NCBI GenBank assembly: GCA_007695095.1
Contig: REEL01000095.1
Coordinates: 1 to 32,316, forward strand
Source: Chitinophagaceae bacterium
GTDB lineage: Bacteria > Bacteroidota > Bacteroidia > Chitinophagales > REEL01
Reading direction: 5' to 3'
DNA length: 32,316 bases
Shown here: positions 625 to 32,316 of the stretch, one piece after another
Layout: each line of letters starts with the position of its first letter
Position numbering within the stretch: position 1 is the stretch's first letter
Translations under genes and position numbers: made by a program
Notes under the pieces: generated by a model
What the model saw: only the letters and a program-made list of their open reading frames with translations
What the model was told of the DNA's origin: nothing
Database searches by the model: none

Positions 625-3156
625 ATGCACCTTTTTAAAAAAATAAGTCTTATTGTCTTAGGTCTGCTCACTGCACTGACTGTGCTCCTGGCAGGTGTCA
701 TTTTTTTTAAAGGTGATTACATAAAAGCACAGCTTGTCAGCGCTATTAATGATCAAATTGATACTGAAATTTATGTTAAAAAAGGTATTCACATTGAATT
801 TTGGTCTCACTTCCCCAATATAACCGTCAGTTTTAATGAAATTGAAATAAAAGAAAAAGCCCCCCTTGGCGACCGAAATTTCCTGAAAGCCGAAAAAGTA
901 GAGTTCGTCATAAACATCTGGGACATCTTCCGAACTGATTATATAGTCCGACGGGTCATTCTGGAAAATGGAAAATTTACTTTTGAACAGTTCTCTGACG
1001 GAAGTCTCAATTATGATATTCTTAAAAAACAGGAAACGGAACAGGAAACAGCCGGTGATTTTAATTTAGATATTCGAAAAATTGAACTGAATAATATAGA
1101 AATTGACTATAAAGACAACATAAACAATTTTTTCATATCCACCGCCTTTGAAAAAAGTACGGTTTCAGCCCGCATGGATCAAAAGGAGTTTACCGCCTTC
1201 ATAGATGCCGCTTGTTTGGTTAATCTGTTTGAAATAGATGAACACTCCTGGATAACAAGTGAAAACTTCAGCTTTAAAGGCGAAATCTTAATTAACACAG
1301 AGCTCAGAAAGTATCTCCTGAACGATATAAACATTCAATTTGCCGGTATAGATTTTAAGACGAGCGGAGAAATCTCTGCACCGACAGACAGCTGGTTTTT
1401 TGATATGAACATCTCTGCCGAAGCGGAAAAATTAGATGATTTGCAAAGCTATCTGCCCGAATATGTGCGTAATAACTTTGATGGCATAAACGGACACCTC
1501 AGCCTTGAATCAGTGATAAAAGGTGAGCTCAGCAGCGATAAAATCCCTGAAATAACGGCTGATTTTCGAGTTAAAGATGCCGCCTTTAAAAGCACCCTTT
1601 ACCGTCAAAATATTGAAAAAATCACTGCTAACGGCAAATTCACTTCCGGAACTGCTATTGATTGCTCTTCCTGTGAGTTAAACGTAAATGACATTTCTTT
1701 TCAATGGGAAAATCAACGCCTGAGCGGTGGAGTGCAGGTCAAAAACCTGAAAAAACCGGTTATACAGGCTAATGCAAACGGGCTTTTATCACTTGAAGTT
1801 ATCAATCACTTTGCCGACTTGCCTTACCAAACAAAGGGTAATTTAACTATTAGAGATTTTAAAATAACCGTACACCCTGAATTTTTAGCAACAAATATCG
1901 ACAGAGCAATTCCTCAACTTTCGGGAGGACTTGATTTTCAAAATCTTACTTTTCAAAACGGCAATGAGAAACTAACTGCCGGCACCGTTCAATTAGCACT
2001 TAACAACCGCCAAATTGAAATCAAAAAAATGGTACTTAAAGATGCCTATCAGGATTTGGAAATAAAGGGAAACACCAATAATCTGATTAGTTATTTTGCT
2101 GCTTTCAACCCGGAAAGTAAAATTGCTGCAAACCCTACCTTCAACCTGAACATCAGCGGTAAAAAGCTGGATATAGAAAAAATTGCCGACTTTTTTAATG
2201 CGAGCCCGGGAAGTCAATCAGAAAATCAGGATGTAGTAGAATTTGATTTGTATGACTTCCTGAACTTTAGCGGGAGTATAACTGCCAACTTAAACCAAAT
2301 CAAGTACGGAACCATCAACACTTCGGATTTTAAGGGAGATTTAAGAATGACATCACGACAGGCACGACTGAATAACTTTTCATTTAATGCTGCACGGGGA
2401 AGATTTACCGGAAATGCTGTTTTAAATGTCCGTAAAAACAATAATGTAGATATTGAAGGAAGTTTTCAGGCCAGAAATGTAAATATTCAACAACTTTTCA
2501 ATGAATGCTATAATTTTGGACAGGAATTTATCACCGGAAAACACATTTCCGGTCTATTAGATACAGATGTTACCATAGGAAATTACTGGCGAAACGGTGA
2601 GTATGATCTTGACAGATTGACTGTAATCGCCGATTTAAACCTGAAAAACGGCCGCCTGATAAACTTTGAACCAATGGAGGCTCTCTCTTCTTACATACAC
2701 ACAGAGGAGTTAAAAAACATACAATTCAGCAATTTAAGCAACCATATAGAAATAGGTAACAGCCGAGTTTTTATTCCAGGGATGAACATAAATACCAATG
2801 CTTTTAAAATACATCTGGAAGGTATACACACATTTGAAAATGAAATTGATTATAATGTACGGGTAAACCTTTCTCATATTTTAGCAAACAGATACAAAAG
2901 CCGCAGAGTTTCCAGAGATTACTGGGAAGACACCTCAGAAGGAATTACTCTATTCTTAAGCATGAAAGGCATGGCCGATAACCCGGACATTTCTTACAAT
3001 TCCAGAGCTGCCAGAGAAAAAATTGCCGAAGATTTCAGAAGACAGGGAGGCGAAGTTAGAAATGCTTTCAGAGGAGAACTGGAAGATTATGACCGTCGAC
3101 GTGAAAACAGAGATTGGGAAACTGAAGCCGAACCCGAGTTCATTGATTGGGATTAA
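625..3156 (+). CDS. AsmA-family protein
   Basis: An 843-residue protein with one N-terminal membrane anchor (about residues 7-29) and a long, mainly beta-strand remainder. The first 100 residues have the usual AsmA opening: a short cytoplasmic lead, one helix, then a segment on the fate of small beta motifs. The C-terminal part (about 560-800) resembles the AsmA-like C-terminal region. Known AsmA-family proteins are inner-membrane anchored and periplasmic, and are linked to outer-membrane assembly and lipid transport. The tail from about residue 800 is highly charged and rich in Arg, Asp and Glu. The ATG at 625 is used because the anchor starts within a few codons of it. The gene diverges from tRNA-Val and precedes the kinase gene by 95 bp. 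The family call is fairly secure, but the specific role is unknown. Confidence 0.75.
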   Translation: MHLFKKISLIVLGLLTALTVLLAGVIFFKGDYIKAQLVSAINDQIDTEIYVKKGIHIEFWSHFPNITVSFNEIEIKEKAPLGDRNFLKAEKVEFVINIWDIFRTDYIVRRVILENGKFTFEQFSDGSLNYDILKKQETEQETAGDFNLDIRKIELNNIEIDYKDNINNFFISTAFEKSTVSARMDQKEFTAFIDAACLVNLFEIDEHSWITSENFSFKGEILINTELRKYLLNDINIQFAGIDFKTSGEISAPTDSWFFDMNISAEAEKLDDLQSYLPEYVRNNFDGINGHLSLESVIKGELSSDKIPEITADFRVKDAAFKSTLYRQNIEKITANGKFTSGTAIDCSSCELNVNDISFQWENQRLSGGVQVKNLKKPVIQANANGLLSLEVINHFADLPYQTKGNLTIRDFKITVHPEFLATNIDRAIPQLSGGLDFQNLTFQNGNEKLTAGTVQLALNNRQIEIKKMVLKDAYQDLEIKGNTNNLISYFAAFNPESKIAANPTFNLNISGKKLDIEKIADFFNASPGSQSENQDVVEFDLYDFLNFSGSITANLNQIKYGTINTSDFKGDLRMTSRQARLNNFSFNAARGRFTGNAVLNVRKNNNVDIEGSFQARNVNIQQLFNECYNFGQEFITGKHISGLLDTDVTIGNYWRNGEYDLDRLTVIADLNLKNGRLINFEPMEALSSYIHTEELKNIQFSNLSNHIEIGNSRVFIPGMNINTNAFKIHLEGIHTFENEIDYNVRVNLSHILANRYKSRRVSRDYWEDTSEGITLFLSMKGMADNPDISYNSRAAREKIAEDFRRQGGEVRNAFRGELEDYDRRRENRDWETEAEPEFIDWD

Positions 3157-3215: not shown

Positions 3216-3239
3216 TAAATTTGCTATAACATTTATAGC
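3216..3239 (+). promoter_or_regulatory. Candidate -7 box and palindrome before the kinase-receptor pair
   Basis: TAAATTTG (3216-3223) fits the Bacteroidota -7 consensus. It overlaps by one base a perfect 7-bp inverted repeat with a 3-base centre, GCTATAA-CAT-TTATAGC (3223-3239), which would span the transcription start. The palindrome could be an operator or a hairpin at the mRNA 5' end. I found no well-spaced -33 box. The start codon is at 3252. Confidence 0.4.
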
Positions 3240-3251
3240 CGGCCTTTTTTA

Positions 3252-4409
3252 ATGGATATATACAAACAGAAATATAATTTTAAGCTATTCTTAATTTTTT
3301 GTGCCGCAGGAATTGTGGTGCTTTCCATTTGGTACACCAACAATTTGGCCGGGAAAATCGCCTATGAGGAAAGAAAAAAAGCTGAATTGCTTGCCAGCGC
3401 TTACAAACAGCTGAATCAGGCTGATGAAAACACAGATATATCTTTCCTTTTTGAAGTAATAAAAAACAACGAATCACTATCTGTCATTCTTACAGACGAA
3501 GATGAAAACATTATTACCTGGCGAAATTTTGACAGCACCCGCGTAGCTTCCAATCCGGACTATTTAAAAGATGAGTTAAAAAGGATGATAGAATCCGGCG
3601 ATCCCATTCAAATTGAAATTTCGCCCGGAATGTATAATTACATTTATTATAAAGACAGCTTTATATTAATTCAGTTACGCTACTTTCCTTACATACAGCT
3701 GGGAACCATCGCATTATTTCTTCTAATCAGCTACATTGCCTTCAGCAATACCCGTAAAGCAGAGCAAAACAAAGTTTGGGTAGGAATGGCAAAAGAGACA
3801 GCTCATCAGCTGGGCACTCCTATTTCGTCCCTTATGGCCTGGGTAGAATACTTAAAAAGTTTACCGGAAAGTGACCCAAATATGTACAATGAAATATCAA
3901 AAGATGTGGAAAGACTGGAGCTTATCAGTGAGCGCTTTTCAAAAATAGGATCCAAACCTGCATTCAAAGAAGTGCATCTTAGCTCCGGCATAGAAAATAT
4001 GGTTCAGTATTTCACTAACAGAACATCTGAACATGTAAAAATAATTTTCAATAAAGAAAATGCTTACGAAGGCAATCTGAAACTCATGCCTACACTTTTT
4101 GACTGGGTGTTGGAAAATCTTATTAAAAACGCCATAGATGCCATGGAAGGAAAAGGAACCATAGAAATCAGCTCGGGTGAGGAAGATAATATGGTTTGGA
4201 TTGAAATTAAAGATAGCGGCAAGGGACTACCCAGATCTAAGTTCAAAACTATCTTTGAACCGGGTTTCAGTACGAAAAAAAGAGGCTGGGGACTGGGGCT
4301 TTCCCTTTCCAAAAGAATCGTAGAAGAATATCATAAAGGAAAAATTTATGTTAAAAGTTCTATCTTAGGGGAAGGAACTACTTTTAGAATTAAACTAAAG
4401 AAAAATTGA
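3252..4409 (+). CDS. Sensor histidine kinase
   Basis: A 385-residue membrane histidine kinase. Two transmembrane helices (about 11-29 and 146-165) enclose a periplasmic sensor region of about 115 residues. The phospho-acceptor is His185 in AHQLGTP. The ATPase domain shows the N box (ENLIKNAIDAM, Asn293), a G1 box DSGKGLP (321-327), an F box around FEPGFSTKK and a G2 box GWGLGLSL (345-352), so all catalytic elements are intact. There is no HAMP or PAS domain that I can recognise between TM2 and the His. The stop TGA overlaps the next start in TGATG, so the TonB-dependent receptor is probably translationally coupled. No response regulator is adjacent. The stimulus and partner are unknown, though the coupling suggests a role tied to the receptor's substrate. 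Confidence 0.93.
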   Translation: MDIYKQKYNFKLFLIFCAAGIVVLSIWYTNNLAGKIAYEERKKAELLASAYKQLNQADENTDISFLFEVIKNNESLSVILTDEDENIITWRNFDSTRVASNPDYLKDELKRMIESGDPIQIEISPGMYNYIYYKDSFILIQLRYFPYIQLGTIALFLLISYIAFSNTRKAEQNKVWVGMAKETAHQLGTPISSLMAWVEYLKSLPESDPNMYNEISKDVERLELISERFSKIGSKPAFKEVHLSSGIENMVQYFTNRTSEHVKIIFNKENAYEGNLKLMPTLFDWVLENLIKNAIDAMEGKGTIEISSGEEDNMVWIEIKDSGKGLPRSKFKTIFEPGFSTKKRGWGLGLSLSKRIVEEYHKGKIYVKSSILGEGTTFRIKLKKN

Positions 4410-6898
4410 TGATTCGCATCCTGTTCTTTTTATTCTTTTTTCTTAACCTCACTTTGCTCAATTGTGTTTATGCAAGTGACACTTTAAAAATAGAAGTAAG
4501 GCAGGCAGGCAATAACCGTATCGTTGAAAATGCTTTTTTATATGCTCAAAACGGCAAAGTACAGGCTTTTTCAAATGAAAGCGGAGTGGCAAAACTACTT
4601 AACATTCAGCCCACAGATACAATTTTCTTCAGCCACCCTTCCTTCTATTCTGAAAGCATAAGTCAGGAAGAGCTTACCAAAACCGGGAACATTTTGTATG
4701 TATTAGAAAGAAATATTTTTCTGGATGAATTCATAGTAACCGCCGGAAAAAAAGACGAGCCGAGAGATTTAATTTCTAATGTTACCCGTATTCAATACAA
4801 TCAATCTTTTTCTTTACAAGGGCATAATCTGAGTACTGAAATAGTAAAACAAAGTGGGCAACACCGGATTTTATACAATTCTCCCGGTGAAATCGAGCTG
4901 AATATCAGAGGTTTTTCAGACCATCGTTTGCTTACCTTAGTTGATGGCACCCGCACGGCTCAACCTGGCAGACCACATCAGGCTTATAAACTGATAAACC
5001 CTTTGTTAGTAGATCGGATAGAAACTGTTTTCGGACCGGGCTCGCTAATTTATGGCAGTGATGCAATTGGGGGTGTCGTAAATGTGATTACGAAAAAACC
5101 ACGAATTCTATTAAATGACAAGCCTGAATTTAGTGGAGAGGCAATGATATCAGGTAATACCGCTAATCTGGAAAGTAATATCAGTGCCTTATTAAACAGC
5201 AGCTTCAAAAATACCGGATTGATAACGGCTTTTTCTTTTCAAAACTCTGAACAACACCAAAGTGGCAGCCGGCAAAATCCTTTTTATTCAGACTTTGGAA
5301 AAAATAATCAGTATATTTTCAGGCAAGACGACCGGGATTATATTGTAAATAACCCCTCCCCTTTTACATATCCAAACAGTAGTTTTCAGCAGTGGAACTT
5401 TGCACAAAAACTTAGGACTCAAATTTCTGTAAACCGCTTATTGGAAGCTTACTTTTATATTGCAGGTGAAGAAGAACACAATGCCTTAGGCCGCCTTCAG
5501 GAAAGATCTGAATCTCCTTTTAATCAGGACGGAGTATTGGAAGTTTTTGAAGATACCGGCTTTGTCAGCTATCCGGATACCAATGTGCAAAACCTTTATT
5601 TTGCTGAATTTTATCATAAGCCTACAGTTCAATGGATTGCCGGTATAAAATACGCAGACTCAGAGCCTTTTTTACCCGGGGATAATATGAACGTTCATAT
5701 CAGCTTTCGTAAATCAGAGAACAATCAGTTTTTTCGATTGCTTAACAGCCCGGACATACATGGTTTTGAAAGTCAATTTATGGCTTTGCAGGCAAACTTA
5801 GATATGGCTACAAGCTTGACAGAAAGCTCTGACTTTTCCTATGGCCTCGAAGCAGATATTAATTTTACAGAGTCAGAAACTATTTCTGAAAGTATTGATA
5901 ATACAGACATAGATGAGTTAAACTTTAGTTTCTATCCGGATGGGAAAAACCTGAAATACAGCCTTTCCGCATATATTCGCTACGATGTGGATTTGAGCTC
6001 AACACTCAGGCTCACTCAGGGGTTCAGATATAGTTTTATAAATTTTGAAAGCTTATACGATGAATACAGTATGCCTGTGTATAACAATAAAGAAATAGCT
6101 TACCGGCGTTCAGCATTTTCCGGAAGTTTTGGCATTTCTTACAGGCCTTCTTCAAACTGGAATTTTAATTTTACAGCCTCTTCCGGTTATCGTAGTCCAA
6201 ACATAGACGATATTGCTAAAACCCATAGCCCGGCAGCCGGCATACTGATGATTCCAAATCCAATTTTAAAGCCTGAATATGCCTATAATGTTGAAACACG
6301 TGTCTTATTTAAACTCAGCGATCAATTACGGGCAGAGGCATTTGTTTATAATACAATCTTAAAAAATGCTATAGTCGTTCAAAATGTATCTCCCAACAAT
6401 ACAGATTCACTGCCTTATCTTGACAAGTCACATAAATTAGTTTCAAACGTAAATATTGGCACTGCCTATGTTAGAGGGGGCGGATATTCTGTTGAAGCAG
6501 CATTAACCCGGGATTTATTTGTAGAGTCTTATGGAAATTTTGCTGTAGGTTTCGACAGTGATTTTAATGAGCGCTTGCCGGGGATACCTCCATTTTATGG
6601 TTTAACAAGGGTTAACTACCGTTATGAGAAGTTTAATTTTTCAATTCGCTGGAATGTTCAGGCATGGAAGCCGTCAAATGAGTTTTCACCATATTTTCAG
6701 GATAATTTAACCTATGCCACAGCAGAAGGGAGTCCTGCTTACCATGTGTTTGATTTTGATGTCCATCGTCAGATCAATGATAAGCTGCGGGTATATGCCG
6801 GGCTGCACAATATAGCCGATGCACATTACCGTCCATATGGCTCCTCTATTAGCGGTATCGGTAGAAACTTAAGGCTTGGTTTGTATCTGAATTATTGA
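4409..6898 (+). CDS. TonB-dependent receptor (heme/hemoglobin-type, inferred)
   Basis: An 829-residue outer-membrane receptor. The signal peptide (about 1-23, ending YAS) precedes a short carboxypeptidase-regulatory-like beta domain (about 25-95), a possible TonB box (DEFIVTAG), and a plug ending in the FGPGSLIYGSDAIGGVVN signature. A 22-stranded barrel should fill the rest, and the protein ends in aromatic Y. The NIADAHYRPYGS...GRNL tail resembles the heme/hemoglobin/transferrin receptor group, so iron or heme uptake is my inference. I chose the ATG at 4409 over an upstream in-frame TTG at 4406. The ATG overlaps the kinase stop and leads straight into the signal peptide. The 3' end overlaps the convergent TPR gene by 7 bp. 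Confidence 0.9.
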   Translation: MIRILFFLFFFLNLTLLNCVYASDTLKIEVRQAGNNRIVENAFLYAQNGKVQAFSNESGVAKLLNIQPTDTIFFSHPSFYSESISQEELTKTGNILYVLERNIFLDEFIVTAGKKDEPRDLISNVTRIQYNQSFSLQGHNLSTEIVKQSGQHRILYNSPGEIELNIRGFSDHRLLTLVDGTRTAQPGRPHQAYKLINPLLVDRIETVFGPGSLIYGSDAIGGVVNVITKKPRILLNDKPEFSGEAMISGNTANLESNISALLNSSFKNTGLITAFSFQNSEQHQSGSRQNPFYSDFGKNNQYIFRQDDRDYIVNNPSPFTYPNSSFQQWNFAQKLRTQISVNRLLEAYFYIAGEEEHNALGRLQERSESPFNQDGVLEVFEDTGFVSYPDTNVQNLYFAEFYHKPTVQWIAGIKYADSEPFLPGDNMNVHISFRKSENNQFFRLLNSPDIHGFESQFMALQANLDMATSLTESSDFSYGLEADINFTESETISESIDNTDIDELNFSFYPDGKNLKYSLSAYIRYDVDLSSTLRLTQGFRYSFINFESLYDEYSMPVYNNKEIAYRRSAFSGSFGISYRPSSNWNFNFTASSGYRSPNIDDIAKTHSPAAGILMIPNPILKPEYAYNVETRVLFKLSDQLRAEAFVYNTILKNAIVVQNVSPNNTDSLPYLDKSHKLVSNVNIGTAYVRGGGYSVEAALTRDLFVESYGNFAVGFDSDFNERLPGIPPFYGLTRVNYRYEKFNFSIRWNVQAWKPSNEFSPYFQDNLTYATAEGSPAYHVFDFDVHRQINDKLRVYAGLHNIADAHYRPYGSSISGIGRNLRLGLYLNY

Positions 6899-12480: not shown

Positions 12481-14079
12481 TCAGGAGAAGTATTTTTTAT
12501 GTATTTGTTTTAAAGCTTCCAAAGTATCAGCTTCAACCGCAGGCTTGTCTCTTCGCCACCTTGCAATCCTGGGGAATCGCAGTGCATAACCGGATTTGTG
12601 TCTGCCGGACTTTCTGATATTTTCAAAAGCAATTTCAAAAACCAATTCCGCTTTCACTTGCCTAACAGGTCCGAATTTATCTATCGCATTTTTACGGATA
12701 AATGAATTTACTTCCTTAAACTCTAAATCTGATAAACCGGAATATGCCTTAGCAACAGTAACCGGCATTCCTTCCTTATCCAGCAAAGCAAAAGTATAAT
12801 CAGTAAACAAATTAGCTCTCCGACCATGACCGCGCATGGCATACGTCAAAATCATATCAAGAGAAAAAGGTTTTGCTTTAAATTTCCACCAATTTCCTCT
12901 TTTTCGTCCTTGTTCATATCTGCTGTCCTTATGCTTAATCATGATACCTTCAGCTCCTTCATACCTTGCACGATTTCTGAGAATTTCAAAATCATCAGAA
13001 GTTTGTATGTCCAGACTTTCAGAAAATTGCAGTACTTCCTTTAAATCCGTGCTTTCAACTATTTTATGCAGGACATCTCTACGTTTTGTTAGTTTCTCCT
13101 GTCGAAAATCTTCTTGTTTGTATTCAAATATATCGTAAGCCTTGAATAAAACAGGATATTCTTCAATCATTTTTTTACTTACCTTTTTTCTGCCCAATCG
13201 CTTTTGCAATTCATTAAAAGTACCTGTTTTTCCATCTTTAAAAGGTAAAATCTCCCCATCCAACACACATGATACCGGAAGCCGGTCAATAAGCTTTTCA
13301 AATTCGGGAAACTGATCAGTTACCAGTTCCTCACCTCTTGACCAAACAAATAGTTTTTTATCTCTGTAGATTAATTGCCCTCTTATGCCATCCCACTTAA
13401 ACTCTGCTGTCCATTGATTGAATTCAGCTAAATCTGTTGCCGGATTTTCAATTGGATATGCCAGATAAAAAGGATATGGTTTGCTGAGGTCGTCATTTGA
13501 ATCTTTAGAAAAAATTAAATCCTCAAAAGTTGTGTTATGAGGTTCCCAATTCCCGGTTATGCGATGCGCTAAGGATTCTCTTTTTATGCCCGTAGCTTTT
13601 TCCAAAGATCTGAGTGTTAAACTCTGAGATATACCAATTCTGAAACCACCTGTGAGCAGTTTATTAAAAACAAACCGCTCTTTACGATTCATTTTTTGCC
13701 AGTACTTTTTCACATATTCTGACTTGAGTTCATCCGAAAGCTGAGTCAATTCTTTCAGCTCCTCCATAATGTGATGGAGGTTCTCTGATACAGATTCACC
13801 GTCAAAAGGCATTAAAAGTGCCATACACTCTGCCAAATCACCTGTAATATGATAGGACTCCTCAAACAGCCAGTTTGGAATTTCAGCAATTTCAGCAGCC
13901 CATAATCTTAGTAAAGATGTTTTAACCGGCCTTTTAGGTCTCCGACCTGTTAACAATGCTAAGGCCCAAATTTTATCCCTTTCATTTGCTGTTGCAAAAT
14001 ATTCAGCTAAAATTGAAATCTTTTTGTTGGTCTTAGCTGTCTCCCTAAGTTGATGTATAGCAGAAGCAAAATGCCTCAT
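12481..14079 (-). CDS. ATP-dependent DNA ligase (LigB / damage-response type)
   Basis: A 532-residue ligase with an N-terminal helical DNA-binding domain (about 1-190), an adenylation domain and a C-terminal OB-fold domain (about 405-532). The adenylated lysine is Lys228 in EFKWDGIRG. Further nucleotidyltransferase motifs are SRGEE, the VLDGEILPF segment, EGIMIK and WWKFK. The size and domain order match the bacterial ligase group described with a cisplatin or DNA-damage response. That group is usually encoded beside an exonuclease, a DEXH helicase and PdeM, none of which is next to this gene. It would seal nicks in repair and is not the replicative NAD-dependent LigA. It sits 94 bp behind trhO. 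Confidence 0.93.
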   Translation of the reverse strand: MRHFASAIHQLRETAKTNKKISILAEYFATANERDKIWALALLTGRRPKRPVKTSLLRLWAAEIAEIPNWLFEESYHITGDLAECMALLMPFDGESVSENLHHIMEELKELTQLSDELKSEYVKKYWQKMNRKERFVFNKLLTGGFRIGISQSLTLRSLEKATGIKRESLAHRITGNWEPHNTTFEDLIFSKDSNDDLSKPYPFYLAYPIENPATDLAEFNQWTAEFKWDGIRGQLIYRDKKLFVWSRGEELVTDQFPEFEKLIDRLPVSCVLDGEILPFKDGKTGTFNELQKRLGRKKVSKKMIEEYPVLFKAYDIFEYKQEDFRQEKLTKRRDVLHKIVESTDLKEVLQFSESLDIQTSDDFEILRNRARYEGAEGIMIKHKDSRYEQGRKRGNWWKFKAKPFSLDMILTYAMRGHGRRANLFTDYTFALLDKEGMPVTVAKAYSGLSDLEFKEVNSFIRKNAIDKFGPVRQVKAELVFEIAFENIRKSGRHKSGYALRFPRIARWRRDKPAVEADTLEALKQIHKKYFS

Positions 14080-17223: not shown

Positions 17224-17688
17224 ATGATTGATTTTGCCATAAATATTACTCCTGATTTCAGTAAATTGAATATCAAACAAGCTGAAGGCAAGAAATATAT
17301 TTTTGATATCTTCAGAAAAAAATATATCCGCTTAAGTCCGGAAGAGTTTGTGAGACAGGCTTTTCTTCAGTATTTGCATTATAAAAAAGGGTACCCGAAA
17401 ACTTTAATTTCCATAGAAAAAATGGTAAAAAACACCAAAGGAAGATATGATGCTATGATTTATTCAAATTCCGGAGATCCGCTGATGTTGATAGAATGTA
17501 AAAATGCTGAGACTAAACTGAACACAAAAGTATTGGAACAAATAAGTCGCTATAATATTCAATATGGAATTCCTTACTGGGTAATTACAAATGGTGAAGA
17601 GAGTTATTGCTTATCGTTTAGCGAAAAGAAAAAGCCTGAGTATTTAAATGATATTCCCAATTATACGGAGCTGATAAAAGGCAAATAA
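17224..17688 (+). CDS. Type I restriction enzyme R N-terminal-like nuclease (HSDR_N_2)
   Basis: A 154-residue protein built around a PD-(D/E)xK nuclease core. The acidic pair Asp76 (RYDAMIY) and Glu91-x-Lys93 (IECKNAE) are in place, and QISRYN supplies the Q-x3-Y-like element seen in RecB-type nucleases. The upstream LSPEEFVRQ helix adds another conserved acidic spot. This matches the HSDR_N_2 domain at the start of type I restriction R subunits, but there is no helicase part and no HsdM or HsdS nearby. It is therefore unlikely to be a restriction enzyme. It diverges from amn-holA with 72 bp between starts, and related genes near holA are common in Bacteroidota as I recall. Its substrate is unknown. 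Confidence 0.85.
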   Translation: MIDFAINITPDFSKLNIKQAEGKKYIFDIFRKKYIRLSPEEFVRQAFLQYLHYKKGYPKTLISIEKMVKNTKGRYDAMIYSNSGDPLMLIECKNAETKLNTKVLEQISRYNIQYGIPYWVITNGEESYCLSFSEKKKPEYLNDIPNYTELIKGK

Positions 17689-19167: not shown

Positions 19168-19416
19168 TTAGGGTTTATTTTTTCTTTCCAGTTTAGAAAT
19201 TCTTCTGTCTATATATACTAAAAAAGCTATTATGCCTGTGAAAATTATCAACATTACTGCTAATACAGCGTAAATCCTGCCGTCTGCTCTAAGTTTGTCA
19301 GCCATTTCGATGGTAAAGCTTTCAGCCATCAAAGACGATGTGAAACTAAGAAGTAATATCAACAACAGAACTCCTTTTGCAATTAATTTATTGAAAAAAC
19401 TATTTTTAATCTTCAT
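19168..19416 (-). CDS. ccmD: CcmD-family protein
   Basis: An 82-residue membrane protein. A hydrophobic N-terminal segment (about 14-31, possibly a signal peptide ending MAES) is followed by a single transmembrane helix (about 47-68). A Lys/Arg-rich tail ([14 protein letters not shown]) points to the cytoplasm. This is the pattern of the short CcmD-like subunit that stabilises the heme exporter with CcmC in cytochrome c maturation. The call rests largely on context. Its start overlaps the ccmC stop by 11 bp, and gdh begins 5 bp after its stop. Confidence 0.75.
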
Positions 19417-20077
19417 CTTTTTCTTCGAGTAAATTTAATCTGATTAATAAAGTTGAAATCCACACACCTAAAACAATCCATCCTATAACAGCCGGATAAA
19501 ACACAACCCGCATTCTGCTGTCCAGGTCATAGACATTGAAGCCGGGATTTCCCCCGCTGCCGGGATGTAAAGAATCTGTCATTCGCGGAATCACATATAT
19601 AAAAGCTATGTACAAAACAAAGGCAAAAATACTGTATACTGCGGCAACTTTCGCTTTAGTATGTTCATCTTCTAGGGAACCTCTCAGTACAAAATAGGCT
19701 AAATATACCAGCAAACCAACCACAGCTCCGTTTAATTTAGGATCATTAACCCACCAGGCACCCCAAGTTGCTGCTGCCCAAAACATTCCTGTAATAAGGC
19801 CTAAAATGCCAAAAATCATGGCTGTAAAAGCGAAATTTTTAGCATATAAATCATGCTTGAGATTCGATCCGGAAAGATATTTAATACTGAAAGTAAAAGA
19901 AAAAATTAACATTACAACCATCCCAAACCACATGGGAACATGAAAATAAAGGTTGCGGATAGATTCATTTAATACCGGTAATCTGGGTACCGGCAACATT
20001 AAACCGGCTACAATAGAATATAAAATCAATACAACAGCTATTGACTTCCACCAGTTATTTTTTAAGAGAATATTCAT
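19406..20077 (-). CDS. ccmC: Heme exporter protein CcmC (cytochrome c biogenesis)
   Basis: A 223-residue multi-pass protein with about six transmembrane helices. It handles heme transfer to CcmE in system I cytochrome c maturation. The tryptophan-rich WGAWWVNDPKLN (about 109-120) between helices is the CcmC/CcsA heme-handling motif. His46 in YFHVPMW and the His in the SLHPGSGG loop are candidate heme ligands. It starts 6 bp after ccmB, and its stop overlaps ccmD. CcmE and CcmF are not in this window. Confidence 0.93.
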   Translation of the reverse strand: MNILLKNNWWKSIAVVLILYSIVAGLMLPVPRLPVLNESIRNLYFHVPMWFGMVVMLIFSFTFSIKYLSGSNLKHDLYAKNFAFTAMIFGILGLITGMFWAAATWGAWWVNDPKLNGAVVGLLVYLAYFVLRGSLEDEHTKAKVAAVYSIFAFVLYIAFIYVIPRMTDSLHPGSGGNPGFNVYDLDSRMRVVFYPAVIGWIVLGVWISTLLIRLNLLEEKDED

Positions 20078-23521: not shown

Positions 23522-23551
23522 TTCGAAATTTAACGGCAATGTTTACCTTTG
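23522..23551 (+). promoter_or_regulatory. Promoter of the DMT transporter gene
   Basis: A TTCG -33-like box (23522-23525, one mismatch to TTTG), an 18-base spacer and an exact -7 box TACCTTTG (23544-23551). The gene's ATG is at 23555, only three bases after the box, so the transcript would be leaderless or the start lies nearly at the ATG. Confidence 0.5.
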
Positions 23552-23554
23552 CAT

Positions 23555-24418
23555 ATGCTAAAACACAATCCAGGGAAGGCAGCTCTTTTTATGATTATTG
23601 CCACTATTTCTGCTACTATCATGCAGGTTTGTGTAAAATTTTTAGCTCATATTCCGGTGGTTGAATTAATCTTTTTTCGCTCAATCATTTCTCTGTTGTT
23701 AAGTGGTAGCTATATTATCCGAAACCGAATTCCCGTTTGGGGTAATAACAAAAAACTACTGGTGATAAGAGCGCTTGCAGGAGTTTTTGCTCTAACACTT
23801 TTTTTTCTGACACTTCAGAAATTACCTCTTGCATCAGCTATTACGCTTCAATATTTATCTCCATTTTTTTCTGTTTTATTGGGCAGGTTCATACTCAAAG
23901 AAAAATTTAAGAAGCTGCAACTTTTCTTTTTTCTGATGGCTATTTTCGGCATTGCAATTATGGGTGCTTTTGATGAAAGAATTCCGTTTATTTATGCTGT
24001 AATGGGAGTGGTTGCTGCTTTTTTTGCCGGTTTAGCCTATAATTTTATACGCTTACTTGGAAAAACAGACCACCCGATGACGGCTGTTTTTTACTTTCCA
24101 CTACTGGCTACACCGGTTATGGCTATACCTACATATTTGCAATGGGTAACCCCTAGCCTTACAGATATTTTCTGGATAATTGGAATGGGGGTTTTTACTC
24201 AATTTCTGCAATATTATACCGCAAAATCTGTACAAAGTGATACCTTATCGCAGGTTACTATCATTAAATATCTGGGGATAGTATTTGGCATTACCGCAGG
24301 CTGGTTCATTTTTAATGAATCTTTATCCATGGAAAATATTGCAGGAATCACTATTGTAACCATTGCTGTTATTGGGAATTACTTTTTTGTAACTCAGAAA
24401 AAAATAAAGCCTGAATAA
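23555..24418 (+). CDS. DMT-superfamily (EamA) transporter
   Basis: A 287-residue protein with about ten transmembrane helices in two EamA halves (about 10-135 and 148-282). The first half begins FMIIATISATIMQVCVK and the second ends with a glycine-rich helix pair (GITIVTIAVIGNYF). These carriers export amino acids, nucleosides or other metabolites, but the substrate here is unknown. I chose the ATG at 23555 over a TTG at 23549 because the TTG lies within the -7 box. The TonB-dependent receptor gene follows 53 bp downstream from its own promoter. Confidence 0.9.
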   Translation: MLKHNPGKAALFMIIATISATIMQVCVKFLAHIPVVELIFFRSIISLLLSGSYIIRNRIPVWGNNKKLLVIRALAGVFALTLFFLTLQKLPLASAITLQYLSPFFSVLLGRFILKEKFKKLQLFFFLMAIFGIAIMGAFDERIPFIYAVMGVVAAFFAGLAYNFIRLLGKTDHPMTAVFYFPLLATPVMAIPTYLQWVTPSLTDIFWIIGMGVFTQFLQYYTAKSVQSDTLSQVTIIKYLGIVFGITAGWFIFNESLSMENIAGITIVTIAVIGNYFFVTQKKIKPE

Positions 24419-24431
24419 TTTTGCAACAACG

Positions 24432-24460
24432 TTGCATAAACTCAAATTTTTGTATCTTTG
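24432..24460 (+). promoter_or_regulatory. Promoter of the second TonB-dependent receptor gene
   Basis: TTG (24432-24434), an 18-base spacer and TATCTTTG (24453-24460) match the Bacteroidota -33 and -7 consensus. The start would fall near 24466, six bases before the ATG at 24472. An in-frame TTG at 24421 lies upstream of the whole promoter and cannot be the start on this transcript. Confidence 0.7.
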
Positions 24461-24471
24461 CATATCTAATT

Positions 24472-26886
24472 ATGCAGTCAATTTTCCATTTAAGATTTTT
24501 TCTAGTATTCGCTATAGCGGTACTCATACTTTTCAAGCCGGGTTTTTCTGAAAATCCGATTTTGGAAGAAGTTGATGTCAGTCAGCGCTTTAAATTAGAG
24601 GGCTATGTCTTTGATGTAGAAGGAGAACCACTTACAGGCGCACAAGTATACCTGCATGAAACTTTAAATGGAAGCATAACCGATCAAAACGGATTTTACA
24701 GTATTTCCAATATCAAACCGGGCTCTTACCATCTGCATATTAAGTTTCTAGGATTTGAAGCTCATGCTAAAACAATAGAAATAAAAAACCGTGATGTACA
24801 ATACAGCTTTAGCATGCGAAATACGGATTTGGAAATCTCGGAAGTTATCATTGAAAGTAATCTACTTAAAAGAAAAGCCAGGGAAAAATCTCTGAGTATA
24901 GAAGTTATAAGTGCTGAGCAAATCAGGGAAAAAGGCGGCAATACTTTAATTCATTCTTTAGAGCATATTCCGGGTGTAAATGCTATGTCTACCGGAACAA
25001 ATATCGTCAAACCTGTCATAAGGGGGCTTGGTTTTAACAGGGTATTGCTGAACGAAAACGGTATTAAACAAGAAGGTCAGCAATGGGGTGAAGAACATGG
25101 ACTGGAGATTGATCAGTTCGCTGTTGAAAGAGTTGAAGTTATCAAAGGTCCGGGCAGCTTACTTTATGGCTCAGATGCTTTGGGTGGTGTGATAAACATT
25201 TCACCTCAAAGATATCCTTCCGGAGATTTCATAAAAGGAGGTGTCGATTTTAATGCCCGCAGTAACAATGAATTGATTGGTTTGTCTGCCTATTCGCATT
25301 TTCAAAAAAACAGAAAGTTTATATATTTCAGAGCTTCAGCATTAGATTACGGTGACTTTAAGGTACCGGCTGATTCTTTTACCTACAATCGCTATATTTT
25401 GCCCATTGAAAATGAGCGCTTGAAAAACACAGCCGGTCGTGAATACGCTTTAACCGGCCGCATAGGCATACAAGGTGACAGAGGATCTTCCAACTTACAA
25501 ATCTCGAATATTGACCAAACCATTGGGTTTTTCCCCGGAGCTATTGGCATACCGAGAGCATATTTATTGGAAGATGATGGAGACAGCCGGAATATTGATA
25601 TTCCTAATCAGGAAATTAGTCATTTTAAAGTAATTTCAAACAATACATTACTTTTTCGTAAAAACTGGTTAGATATTGATCTGGGCTTTCAACAAAATGT
25701 ACGAAATGAAATCTCATTTCCTCACAGTCATGGATTTGGACCCAGACCGGAGGACAGTTTGGCTTTAGGACTAAACCTCAAAACATTTACAGCTAATATG
25801 AGATACTATTCCCGCTTAAATGAAAGCATTAACTTCATAACAGGAATCAATTCTCAGTACCAAATCAATGAAATTTCAGGTTTTGAATTTTTAATTCCCG
25901 AATACAGAAGCATACAGGCCGGGATTTTTCATTTTGCCGAGTGGGATGTTTCTGAAAGCCTGATTGTTAATGGAGGTATTCGTTTTGATTATGGCTATTT
26001 TGACATAGATGAATACTTAGAACCGCTTTACTCAGAGCCGGAAGTAATAAACGGTTTTTATGAGCGGGTTCCCGATACAGAAAGAAATTTTTACAATTTT
26101 TCAGCAGGCTTAGGCTTGTCTTATATGCCCAATGAAAACTGGAATTTTAAATTTAATTCAGGTCGCAGTTTTAAAATGCCGAATATTGCTGAATTAGGAG
26201 CTAATGGGGTGCATCACAGCACATTCCGCCACGAACAGGGCAATCCCGATTTAGACGTAGAAACCGGCTATCAGTTTGATGTTTCCATGACGTATCGCAC
26301 TTCAAATTTTCGAATTGCTCTTTCTCCGTTTTTTAACTACTTTGACAATCATATCTACCTGCAACCTTCAGGTACTTTTTCTTTTTTACCGCATACCGGG
26401 CAACTTTATAACTATGTGCAGGCCAATGCCGTACATTTTGGAGGAGAATGGCTTTTAGAGTATCATCCGGTTTCTTTTCTGCATTTAGAATGGAATACGG
26501 AATATGTGATGGGGCATAATATTGAAGAAAATTATCCGCTTCCTTTTATCCCTCCCCTCACCAATCGCTTTATTGTTGAATACAGACATAACAAAGACTA
26601 TGGCCCTTTAAATAATATACACTTGAATTTTCAGGCAAGGCATACTGCCAAACAAAGCCGAATCCAAAGAAATGAAAAAGCAACTGATGGCTACCTGCTT
26701 TTCAATGCAGGCATAGGCACGAGTATAGATGTAAAAAATCAATCTTTTTACCTGCAATTCCGGGTTGATAACATTTTAGATACCCGCTACAAAAATCATT
26801 TGAGTTATTACCGCTTACTGAATCTGCCGGAAGCCGGGAGAAATTTCACCCTCAGTATCAGCATTCCATTACATAAAGATTTGTAA
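24472..26886 (+). CDS. TonB-dependent receptor (metal uptake inferred)
   Basis: An 804-residue outer-membrane receptor. The signal peptide (about 1-26) precedes a carboxypeptidase-regulatory-like beta domain (about 42-118: GYVFDVEGEPLTGAQVYL...DQNGFYSISNI), a TonB-box-like EISEVIIES (about 119-127), and a plug with VEVIKGPGSLLYGSDALGGVIN (about 216-237). A 22-stranded barrel should follow to the C-terminus. The plug and barrel (QQWGEEHGLEIDQ, GANGVHHSTFRHEQGNPDL) resemble the zinc/copper-type receptors of the ZnuD group, so metal-ion uptake is my inference. It lies alone after the DMT gene, with its own promoter. The ATG at 24472 fits the signal peptide. Confidence 0.88.
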   Translation: MQSIFHLRFFLVFAIAVLILFKPGFSENPILEEVDVSQRFKLEGYVFDVEGEPLTGAQVYLHETLNGSITDQNGFYSISNIKPGSYHLHIKFLGFEAHAKTIEIKNRDVQYSFSMRNTDLEISEVIIESNLLKRKAREKSLSIEVISAEQIREKGGNTLIHSLEHIPGVNAMSTGTNIVKPVIRGLGFNRVLLNENGIKQEGQQWGEEHGLEIDQFAVERVEVIKGPGSLLYGSDALGGVINISPQRYPSGDFIKGGVDFNARSNNELIGLSAYSHFQKNRKFIYFRASALDYGDFKVPADSFTYNRYILPIENERLKNTAGREYALTGRIGIQGDRGSSNLQISNIDQTIGFFPGAIGIPRAYLLEDDGDSRNIDIPNQEISHFKVISNNTLLFRKNWLDIDLGFQQNVRNEISFPHSHGFGPRPEDSLALGLNLKTFTANMRYYSRLNESINFITGINSQYQINEISGFEFLIPEYRSIQAGIFHFAEWDVSESLIVNGGIRFDYGYFDIDEYLEPLYSEPEVINGFYERVPDTERNFYNFSAGLGLSYMPNENWNFKFNSGRSFKMPNIAELGANGVHHSTFRHEQGNPDLDVETGYQFDVSMTYRTSNFRIALSPFFNYFDNHIYLQPSGTFSFLPHTGQLYNYVQANAVHFGGEWLLEYHPVSFLHLEWNTEYVMGHNIEENYPLPFIPPLTNRFIVEYRHNKDYGPLNNIHLNFQARHTAKQSRIQRNEKATDGYLLFNAGIGTSIDVKNQSFYLQFRVDNILDTRYKNHLSYYRLLNLPEAGRNFTLSISIPLHKDL

Positions 26887-27988: not shown

Positions 27989-29383
<1,395 letters not shown>

Positions 29384-29797: not shown

Positions 29798-29826
29798 TTG
29801 TTTTTTTCATTTTTTGCCTACCTTTG
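29798..29826 (+). promoter_or_regulatory. Promoter of the secreted repeat protein
   Basis: TTG (29798-29800), an 18-base spacer and TACCTTTG (29819-29826) match both Bacteroidota promoter boxes. The start would be near 29832, leaving a leader of about 20 bases before the ATG at 29853. Confidence 0.75.
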
Positions 29827-29852
29827 CTGCACTTTTTATTAACTCAACACTA

Positions 29853-32316
29853 ATGATTAAAAAATACTTTTTACTAACAAACTTTATCTTCCTAATAAGT
29901 TTATTTTGCCTCAACCTGCAAGCCCAATCCGTAACTATTGTCCAGCCAAATGGCGGGGAAACATTATATAGTTGTGAAGTTTATCCCATTACTTGGAATC
30001 AGTCGGGTTCTTTATCTAATTACTGGAATATTGATTATTCCTTAGATGGCGGAACAATTTGGGCATCTGTAGCCTCAAACTTCCAATCAACAACCGGAGA
30101 ATACCTGTGGACTGTACCCAATGTAAGTTCAACTACGGTTTTAATCCGTGTCAGGGATGCTCAAAATCTGTCCACACAAGACATAAGTGATAGTCTTTTC
30201 TCCATTAACTTTCCTATACAAATTACTTCCCCGGTCGGTGGCGAAGTATGGCAAGGACTCAGCACTCAACAAATTACCTGGGATGCGGGTGGAACTTCGA
30301 ACACATACCAAATCCACTATTCAAAAAACGGTGGGAATACATGGATTCCTATAGTTACCAACTACTCGTCACTTACAGGGACTTACGACTGGACAGTACC
30401 GAATGACCCGGGTTCAAATGTTATAGTCAGAGTTCGGGATGCAGCTCAATATTGCAAACAGGATATCAGTAATGTATTTGAAATCACCCCTGCCCAACCG
30501 GTTTTATTAACCCCTAACGGAGGAGAAGAATTATGGCCGGGATGTAGTTATCAAATCACCTGGGATCAGGAAACTTTTTATTCAAATGTAAGATTGGAAT
30601 ATTCAGATGACAACGGAGTCACCTGGAACACAGCCTTTAGTTCAACATCAAATAATGGCAGCAGAAACTGGACGCCACCTGCGAATATAATTCCCGGCAA
30701 TCAATACTTAATCAAAGCATCCAACACAGCAGATTTTAATGTGTTTGATGTGAGTGATGCACCTTTTACCATACTTGAACCCATTGAGATAATTAATCCA
30801 ATGGCCGGTGATACGGTATATGGATGTAATCTATTAGCAATAGAAATGATAAAATCAACTTGTATAGGTAATTTCAGGGTTTTGTATTCCTTAGATAACG
30901 GAGCAACATGGAGTACCATTATCACATCTTTATCGAACACTTCTAACAATAACCAGATATACGAAAACTGGACAATCCCAAATGGCATTACAACCGATGA
31001 AGCTATCATAAGAGTTGAGCGAGCTTTTGATAATACTGTTTTTGCAGAATCGGAAGTGTTTAGCATACGTCCAAGTAATGATATTACCGTAACCGCACCT
31101 ACTCCCGGAGAGTCAATCAATGCCTCAACAACTTATCAAATCACTTGGGACAACACACCTAATGTTTCCGGAGCTTATGACTTACATTATAAAACAGTGA
31201 GCAGCGGATGGACAACAATCGCAACGAACATTACAGGAAATGCCTATAATTGGAATGTCCCCAATATGAGTGCAAGTACTGTGCAAATAAGAGTAAGAGA
31301 CAGAAATAATACTTGTAAAGCAAATATTACGGAGAATTTTACAATAATACCGGATCAACCGATACTATTGGGACCAAACGGCGGGGAAGAATTTTGGCCG
31401 GGATGTTCTTACCCGATTACATGGGACGCCAGTACTTTTTATACGAATCCGACTATTCAATACTCTTCAGATAGTGGAAGTACATGGACAACAATATGGA
31501 GTACATCCACAAATAATGGCAGTAGAAACTGGGGCGTACCCATTGGTGCAACACCGGGCGATAATTATCTCATCAAAATTTTCAATAGCGGTAATTCCAC
31601 TTTACATGATGTGAGTGATGCACCTTTTACAATTAAAACTCCTCTTACAGTAATAGAACCTGATGAAACAGACACTTTAATTGGTTGTACAACATTCCCT
31701 ATACGATTTGAAACTTCGGGTTGTATAGGCAGCTTAAGAATTTCTTATTCTATCGATGGAGGTGACAACTGGACTGTCATTGTTTCATCTCTATCTAACT
31801 CTACTTCCGGAATGAGAACTTACAACTGGAGTGTACCTAATGGTATTAACACAGATGAAGCAAAAATAAGAGTTGAAAGAGCATTTGACAGCAGTGTTTT
31901 TCATGAATCAGAACTGTTTAGCATCAGGCCAAGCGATGAGATAGATGTTTTAACCCCAACTGCCGGAGAATCAGTTCCGGCTTTACAGCCTTATGAAATT
32001 ACCTGGAATCATACCCCTGTAGTATCTGAATTTGAAATTCACTATAGTATAAACGATGGAGGTGTATGGAATTTAATAGATAATAATGTATCCGGAACAA
32101 GTTTTACCTGGGAACCGCCAAACACCCCTACTTCAACTGCAAGAATAAGAGTCAGAGACCGTTTTAATTACTGCAGACACGAAGTAAGCGATGCTTTTAC
32201 AATTACCCCTGCCCAACCGGTTTTACTTACTCCCAACGGAGGAGAAGAACTATGGCCGGGCTGTAGTTATCAAATCACCTGGGATCAGGAAACTTTTTAT
32301 TCAAATGTAAGATTGG
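29853..32316 (+). CDS. Large secreted multi-domain repeat protein (3' end beyond window)
   Basis: An open frame from ATG 29853 to the window edge with no stop, 821 full codons. A signal peptide (about 1-25, ending QAQS) leads into tandem domains of 92-100 residues. Each typically has PNGGE near its start, an ITW strand, YSxDxGxTW and an RVRD-type C-terminal strand. This resembles the Kre9/KNH Ser-Thr-rich domain family and other Ig-like sandwiches of secreted Bacteroidota proteins. The PNGGE-equivalent residue of domains 1-9 falls at 33, 128, 222, 317, 417, 509, 604, 703 and 795. Domains 3-5 and 6-8 form an A-B-C pattern, and domain 9 restarts A. B domains lack the ITW motif, and cysteines occur at fixed spots. 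Surface adhesion or type IX secretion is plausible but unproven, because any C-terminal sorting domain lies outside. Confidence 0.9.
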   Translation, partial: MIKKYFLLTNFIFLISLFCLNLQAQSVTIVQPNGGETLYSCEVYPITWNQSGSLSNYWNIDYSLDGGTIWASVASNFQSTTGEYLWTVPNVSSTTVLIRVRDAQNLSTQDISDSLFSINFPIQITSPVGGEVWQGLSTQQITWDAGGTSNTYQIHYSKNGGNTWIPIVTNYSSLTGTYDWTVPNDPGSNVIVRVRDAAQYCKQDISNVFEITPAQPVLLTPNGGEELWPGCSYQITWDQETFYSNVRLEYSDDNGVTWNTAFSSTSNNGSRNWTPPANIIPGNQYLIKASNTADFNVFDVSDAPFTILEPIEIINPMAGDTVYGCNLLAIEMIKSTCIGNFRVLYSLDNGATWSTIITSLSNTSNNNQIYENWTIPNGITTDEAIIRVERAFDNTVFAESEVFSIRPSNDITVTAPTPGESINASTTYQITWDNTPNVSGAYDLHYKTVSSGWTTIATNITGNAYNWNVPNMSASTVQIRVRDRNNTCKANITENFTIIPDQPILLGPNGGEEFWPGCSYPITWDASTFYTNPTIQYSSDSGSTWTTIWSTSTNNGSRNWGVPIGATPGDNYLIKIFNSGNSTLHDVSDAPFTIKTPLTVIEPDETDTLIGCTTFPIRFETSGCIGSLRISYSIDGGDNWTVIVSSLSNSTSGMRTYNWSVPNGINTDEAKIRVERAFDSSVFHESELFSIRPSDEIDVLTPTAGESVPALQPYEITWNHTPVVSEFEIHYSINDGGVWNLIDNNVSGTSFTWEPPNTPTSTARIRVRDRFNYCRHEVSDAFTITPAQPVLLTPNGGEELWPGCSYQITWDQETFYSNVRL
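30484..32316 (+). repeat. Higher-order tandem repeat within the secreted protein
   Basis: Super-units begin at the A-domain PNGGEE codons at 30516, 31377 and 32235, giving periods of 861 and 858 bp (287 and 286 codons). Within each unit the spacing from A to B is 95 residues, from B to C 99-100, and from C to the next A 92. The copy starting at about 30484 and the one at about 32203 encode the same 38 residues with all differences synonymous, and the last 55 bases of the window match exactly. The middle copy (about 31345) is more diverged. Confidence 0.9.

Follow-up and report, generated by a model that had tools for sequence, protein, structure and literature searches.

A predicted PorY-type sensor kinase gene joined to the gene of a heme-receptor-like TonB-dependent receptor in a Chitinophagaceae bacterium

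The window analysed here is the whole of a single contig (C95; 32,316 bases) from a draft genome of 3.49 Mb. The genes and signals considered in this study lie in its first quarter, all on the same strand, and are as follows.

625 to 3156, + strand: gene of an AsmA-like envelope protein, 843 aa (Pfam AsmA, 57 bits, above the cut-off of 29.8)
3216 to 3223, + strand: TAAATTTG, which may be a Bacteroidota −7 box, between the AsmA-like gene and the kinase gene (pattern match; no −33 partner found)
3252 to 4409, + strand: gene of a sensor histidine kinase, predicted PorY ortholog, 385 aa (hydrophobic segments at about 8–30 and 144–166, His185, HATPase_c at 286–384)
4407 to 4411, + strand: TGATG, with one base common to the kinase stop and the receptor start
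4409 to 6898, + strand: gene of a TonB-dependent receptor, 829 aa, resembling heme receptors but scoring under the cut-off of that family (Plug and TonB-dependent barrel domains exceed their Pfam cut-offs)

The first-pass annotation had described an overlap of the kinase stop codon with the receptor ATG, and this is what the sequence contains: the TGA at 4407–4409 and the ATG at 4409–4411 have a single base in common. The list of open reading frames starts the receptor at a TTG (4406), and the ATG at 4409 is in the same frame. Taken alone the overlap is weak evidence, because another gene pair in the window overlaps as well (19168–19416 with 19406–20077). The gene after the receptor encodes a TPR protein on the opposite strand. 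A Pfam scan of the 26 distinct window ORFs found no response regulator, FecR, sigma factor or SusD; thus, the kinase has no adjacent regulator and the receptor has neither an anti-sigma/sigma pair nor a SusD neighbor, as had been noted from the sequence. A SusC/SusD arrangement was rejected, given that none of the 26 ORFs has a SusD-like match and the next gene is the TPR gene on the other strand. Genome-wide, Response_reg was found at 40 places, none of them on the contig of the kinase.

Several other window genes were recorded. A stand-alone HSDR_N_2 gene (type I restriction R-subunit N-terminal domain; 17224–17688, 154 aa, 103.6 bits) is situated between genes for nucleoside phosphorylase-like and glutamate dehydrogenase-like proteins. 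An ATP-dependent DNA ligase is encoded at 12481–14079 among the housekeeping genes of the window, and an RNA ligase of the RtcB family at 27989–29383 (121.7 bits). A large ORF of secreted appearance (29814–32315) contains nearly identical repeat units and is left incomplete by the contig end; the contig may therefore end in a repeat.

Candidate promoters were searched for using a motif with −33 and −7 boxes, which we take to be the Bacteroidota promoter pattern. The −7 box occurs 64 times in the window (47 expected), and the full pattern was matched three times vs 3.6 expected, that is, at chance level. An independent strong promoter within the 3' end of the kinase gene had been named in the first-pass annotation as evidence that would speak against coupling; no complete match to the Bacteroidota-type pattern is present on the + strand within the kinase. 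A σ70 scan of the window also gave chance-level results, and the Rfam scan yielded only the tRNA. The kinase and receptor genes are probably carried on one message, possibly together with the AsmA-like gene.

The kinase sequence agrees with the earlier remark on its H box and ATP lid. Its H box, MAKETAHQLGTP, is intact with H185 as the acceptor, and the HATPase_c domain, also intact, scores 80.4 bits (cut-off 26.4), whereas HisKA scores 21.9 bits, under its own Pfam cut-off of 26.9. The hydropathy profile has two hydrophobic segments (about residues 8–30 and 144–166) with about 115 aa between them in the periplasm, and in the predicted model the DHp and ATPase domains follow the membrane segments.

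For comparison with a characterized system we proceeded from the PorX of the window genome (518 aa, encoded on contig C127 while the kinase is on C95) to its solved relatives, among them the 7pv7 chain, and then to a genome encoding an identical PorX. This genome (G732) is a single contig of 2.4 Mb. Its name in this study is based on the organism of 7pv7, presumably of the Porphyromonas gingivalis type. The window kinase has exactly one match in it at E <1e-15, located 1.1 Mb from porX. In the reverse comparison the two proteins are 45% identical over 382 residues (E 1e-110) and are reciprocal best matches, the next among the fetched kinases of the window genome having E 1e-21. The matching ORF encodes 395 aa with His193, which is aligned with H185 of the window kinase, Ser241, Ser266, and hydrophobic segments at 14–36 and 149–173. 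Length, histidine, serine residues and membrane segments agree with the features of PorY given in the available text of PMC5005315 and PMC7712824. Together with the PorX identical to 7pv7, this agreement leads us to infer that the genome is of the P. gingivalis type. Judged from sequence, then, the window kinase is an ortholog of PorY (PGN_2001/PG0052 in P. gingivalis) rather than an exotic orphan, sharing with it identity, topology, acceptor histidine, an orphan location and a PorX in the same genome. It differs from P. gingivalis PorY in that its gene directly precedes a TonB-dependent receptor gene and follows an AsmA-like gene; a search of about 1.4 kb ahead of P. gingivalis porY revealed no gene of the latter kind. 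It is a known kind of kinase in a new gene arrangement.

In P. gingivalis, according to the available text of PMC4800418, porX and porY are far apart and form one two-component system, in which PorY autophosphorylates and passes the phosphate to PorX. The accessible parts of the literature further describe P. gingivalis PorX as acting together with SigP on genes of type IX secretion and as binding the PorL motor subunit. The regulator is missing beside the window kinase because PorX is normally encoded apart from PorY. Hence, the absence that had seemed unusual in the initial reading is the ordinary state of this kinase, which is an orphan by nature with PorX on another contig. The window genome also encodes at least 150 type IX sorting tails (TIGR04183), and the presence of type IX secretion was judged from these cargo tails alone rather than from apparatus genes.

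The first-pass annotation had proposed looking for an orphan regulator conserved along with the gene pair; PorX is present in all 59 same-order genomes searched. Here and below, "same-order" means Chitinophagales in the GTDB sense, as judged from the named tree rows among these genomes. Over a wider set, the kinase was found in 80 of 85 PorX-positive and 11 of 36 PorX-negative genomes (presence threshold E <1e-60; Fisher P 9e-13, for genomes that are not independent and, in the PorX-negative group, are in part incomplete). Of the PorX-positive genomes, those of two sub-samples were small picks (16 and 10) out of a larger number available, and the PorX-negative ones tested were 20 of 52 in one sample, divided 4 and 16 between the two sub-samples, and 20 of 23 in another. 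One sub-sample alone gave the kinase in 14/16 PorX-positive and 0/16 PorX-negative genomes. Five genomes have PorX with no kinase found (G006, G010, G021, G448 and G452). In one family, which the kinase matches suggest to be Bacteroidaceae, three members lacking PorX (G090, G130 and G194) also lack the kinase, and two PorX-bearing members have it. This fits the published account that porY was originally found through its absence from Bacteroides thetaiotaomicron (PMC5053529, available text).

It is quite unlikely that the main target of the kinase is a regulator other than PorX, possibly one that governs nutrient uptake through the receptor. Eleven of the 36 PorX-negative genomes keep the kinase, the window genome has about 40 receiver domains, and in P. 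gingivalis the loss of porX is stronger in effect than that of porY, so that the pair is not exclusive (PMC8050853, available text). Against these points stand the strong co-occurrence of kinase and PorX and the fact that the kinase is conserved together with the features published for PorY.

Among the same-order genomes, 56 of 59 contain the kinase ortholog, the window genome included; the three genomes that yielded no ortholog are G006, G010 and G021, and completeness exceeds 90% only for G010. It also occurs in Bacteroidales and other Bacteroidota (80 named loci were kept). The gene tree splits the same-order kinases from those of Bacteroidales and other Bacteroidota, as expected for a kinase that is probably inherited mostly vertically. 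In several same-order families (loci L060, L061, L064, L065, L068–L070, L072, L073, L075 and L076) the PorY ortholog is about 500 aa long and has extra N-terminal sequence ahead of the part common to all. In a fold search with the whole kinase the matches were taken up by the catalytic half, and the periplasmic domain folded alone gave a modest model (pLDDT 70). The best matches of the latter come from kinases and chemoreceptors and are sensor domains of their periplasmic parts, including KinD (4jgp; Z 7.2, rmsd 3.6, 92 aligned residues) and CusS (5ku5; Z 6.7, rmsd 2.8, 97 aligned); the best Foldseek E is 0.017. The model only suggests that the periplasmic domain of the window kinase is a PDC-like sensor.

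Linkage of kinase and receptor was counted over the 59 same-order genomes and the 80 named loci. Tight pairing, with the receptor on the same strand directly downstream, occurs in seven of the 59 genomes, belonging to 6 of 22 families, and is absent in the other 52. Apart from the window genome, it is found in 6 of 55 kinase-bearing same-order genomes, for which a rough binomial estimate of chance is 3e-8, under an assumption of independence that the genomes do not satisfy. It is the recurrence in relatives, not the overlap, that places the pairing above chance. Conservation of the pair, which the first-pass annotation had proposed to check, is partial: it is no one-off, since it recurs in six other genomes from five other families, but the kinase usually occurs without the receptor. 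The suggested translational coupling is likewise possible at this locus, whereas elsewhere a one-base overlap is seen only in G013 (TAATG), where the contig ends within the receptor gene and the assembly breaks the kinase gene. The other spacings range from about −44 to +38 bp: the genes overlap by about 44 bases in G030 and G043 if the first receptor start is used, and are separated by +4 bp in G009, +16 bp in G037 and +38 bp in G008. The adjacent receptor is the best match of the genome to the query in the six other paired genomes; in G013 the best match is a fragment from a different contig, probably the rest of the truncated gene. In one more genome (G001) the receptor lies about 2 kb downstream of the kinase. 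Only one of the 80 named loci (L117, from a Chitinophagales genome) has a receptor downstream, after a gap of 627 bp; the other 79, some with little downstream DNA, have no such receptor after the kinase. A private kinase–receptor system was rejected, as the kinase is the class-wide PorY and mostly occurs without this receptor.

On a quick tree of 32 receptors (arbitrary root; the second receptor of the window genome and the rows of G038, G006 and G021, being long or doubtful, were dropped before the count) the label "linked or near" requires 3 changes vs 7.9 for shuffled labels, with 0 of 500 shuffles as low. A single clade of linked and near receptors was rejected (AU p 5e-44), and the G008 receptor is placed among unlinked ones. 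One old pairing followed by losses and a few separate gains both fit these data.

The clustering of the label on this tree and the recurrence of the gene order with short spacing in six families argue against the view that the receptor is a bystander, sharing a message with porY and having no role in signaling from PorY to PorX. This view is plausible nevertheless and somewhat short of even odds, given that most genomes with PorY have no pairing, this receptor family is usually encoded elsewhere, gene overlaps are not rare, and the genes flanking PorY vary widely among loci.

The AsmA-like gene, which the first-pass annotation had passed over, is a class-wide neighbor of porY and a commoner one than the receptor. 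Among loci with sufficient upstream sequence, 20 of 41 from the order and 20 of the 70 named ones have it on the same strand no more than 1 kb ahead of the kinase gene, often a few bases from porY or overlapping it. The AsmA-like, kinase and receptor genes stand in a row in four of the seven tight pairs (the window, G008, G009 and G037). In the literature searched, judged largely by titles, we found no description of an AsmA-like or receptor neighbor of porY.

The best NCBIfam match of the receptor is the model of TonB-dependent heme receptors (TIGR01785), and its best solved relative is PhuR, with which it has the stretch YRSP...NPILKPE in common; among these receptors, which also include ShuA, it differs in scoring 182.7 bits, far under the cut-off of 316.85, and is therefore not assigned to the family. 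The window receptor alone has a histidine between the two boxes of the heme motif. Among the other 35 receptors inspected, 13 fit the motif pattern but lack this histidine, and 22, including all other linked ones, do not fit it. Accordingly, no conserved heme-motif histidine was found across these relatives. Nothing comparable to the receptor is encoded in the P. gingivalis-type genome (best E 3e-11), and since P. gingivalis is the model for PorY this counts against a part of the receptor in the PorY circuit. In some Bacteroidales outside the P. gingivalis family (G450, G065 and G190) the receptor is encoded away from the kinase. The window contains a second TonB-dependent receptor gene (24421–26886, in the region 23549–26886), which directly follows a gene for an EamA-type transporter and matches NCBIfam heme and zinc-piracy ZnuD models below cut-off.

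TonB-dependent receptors can signal via an anti-sigma/sigma pair, as in the FecA type, and the present locus resembles FecA/FecR/FecI in having an outer-membrane TonB-dependent receptor beside a regulatory gene. That the window receptor signals in this established way and adjoins the kinase by accident is nonetheless highly improbable. No STN domain was detected in it at E up to 5, the 26 window ORFs include no FecR-like or sigma gene, and the neighbor is a histidine kinase. By eye, its N-terminal 80 residues resemble a carboxypeptidase-regulatory-like sandwich, with no Pfam support at E up to 5.

Taken together, we favor, with a probability of roughly 0.6, the explanation that the kinase is a PorY ortholog relaying to PorX and that the receptor forms part of one envelope circuit with it. 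By analogy with P. gingivalis, PorY would read a periplasmic signal through its periplasmic domain, autophosphorylate and transfer the phosphate to PorX encoded elsewhere, so that no neighboring regulator is needed. The place of the receptor is the least certain step. It may supply or report a signal to PorY, or it may be a surface protein with an abundance coupled to the state of secretion. The specific version in which the receptor is the signal source of PorY, reporting ligand capture or transport across the periplasm, possibly aided by the AsmA-like protein, and thereby setting type IX secretion via PorX, is rather doubtful.

The activator of PorY is described as still to be determined, and a further factor is expected to connect PorY with the cell surface (the PorA paper, PMC7712824, available text). 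Hemin stimulates PorX-dependent genes, that is, the Por system responds to it, according to the accessible part of PMC8050853. For these two reasons the heme-receptor-like protein is a candidate link to PorY. The receptor, and even more so the AsmA-like gene, are candidate partners of PorY. Concrete candidates for the connection between the cell surface and this kinase are thus the heme-receptor-like gene that adjoins porY in several families and the class-wide AsmA-like gene. Even if the receptor is a bystander, orthology to PorY would explain a kinase that appears to have no partner. If one of these candidates is indeed the link, the question of the PorY input would become testable. In the doubtful case that the receptor is the signal source of PorY, the locus would represent a route by which a TonB-dependent receptor signals via a histidine kinase instead of a sigma/anti-sigma pair, and would supply what is missing between the cell surface and PorY.
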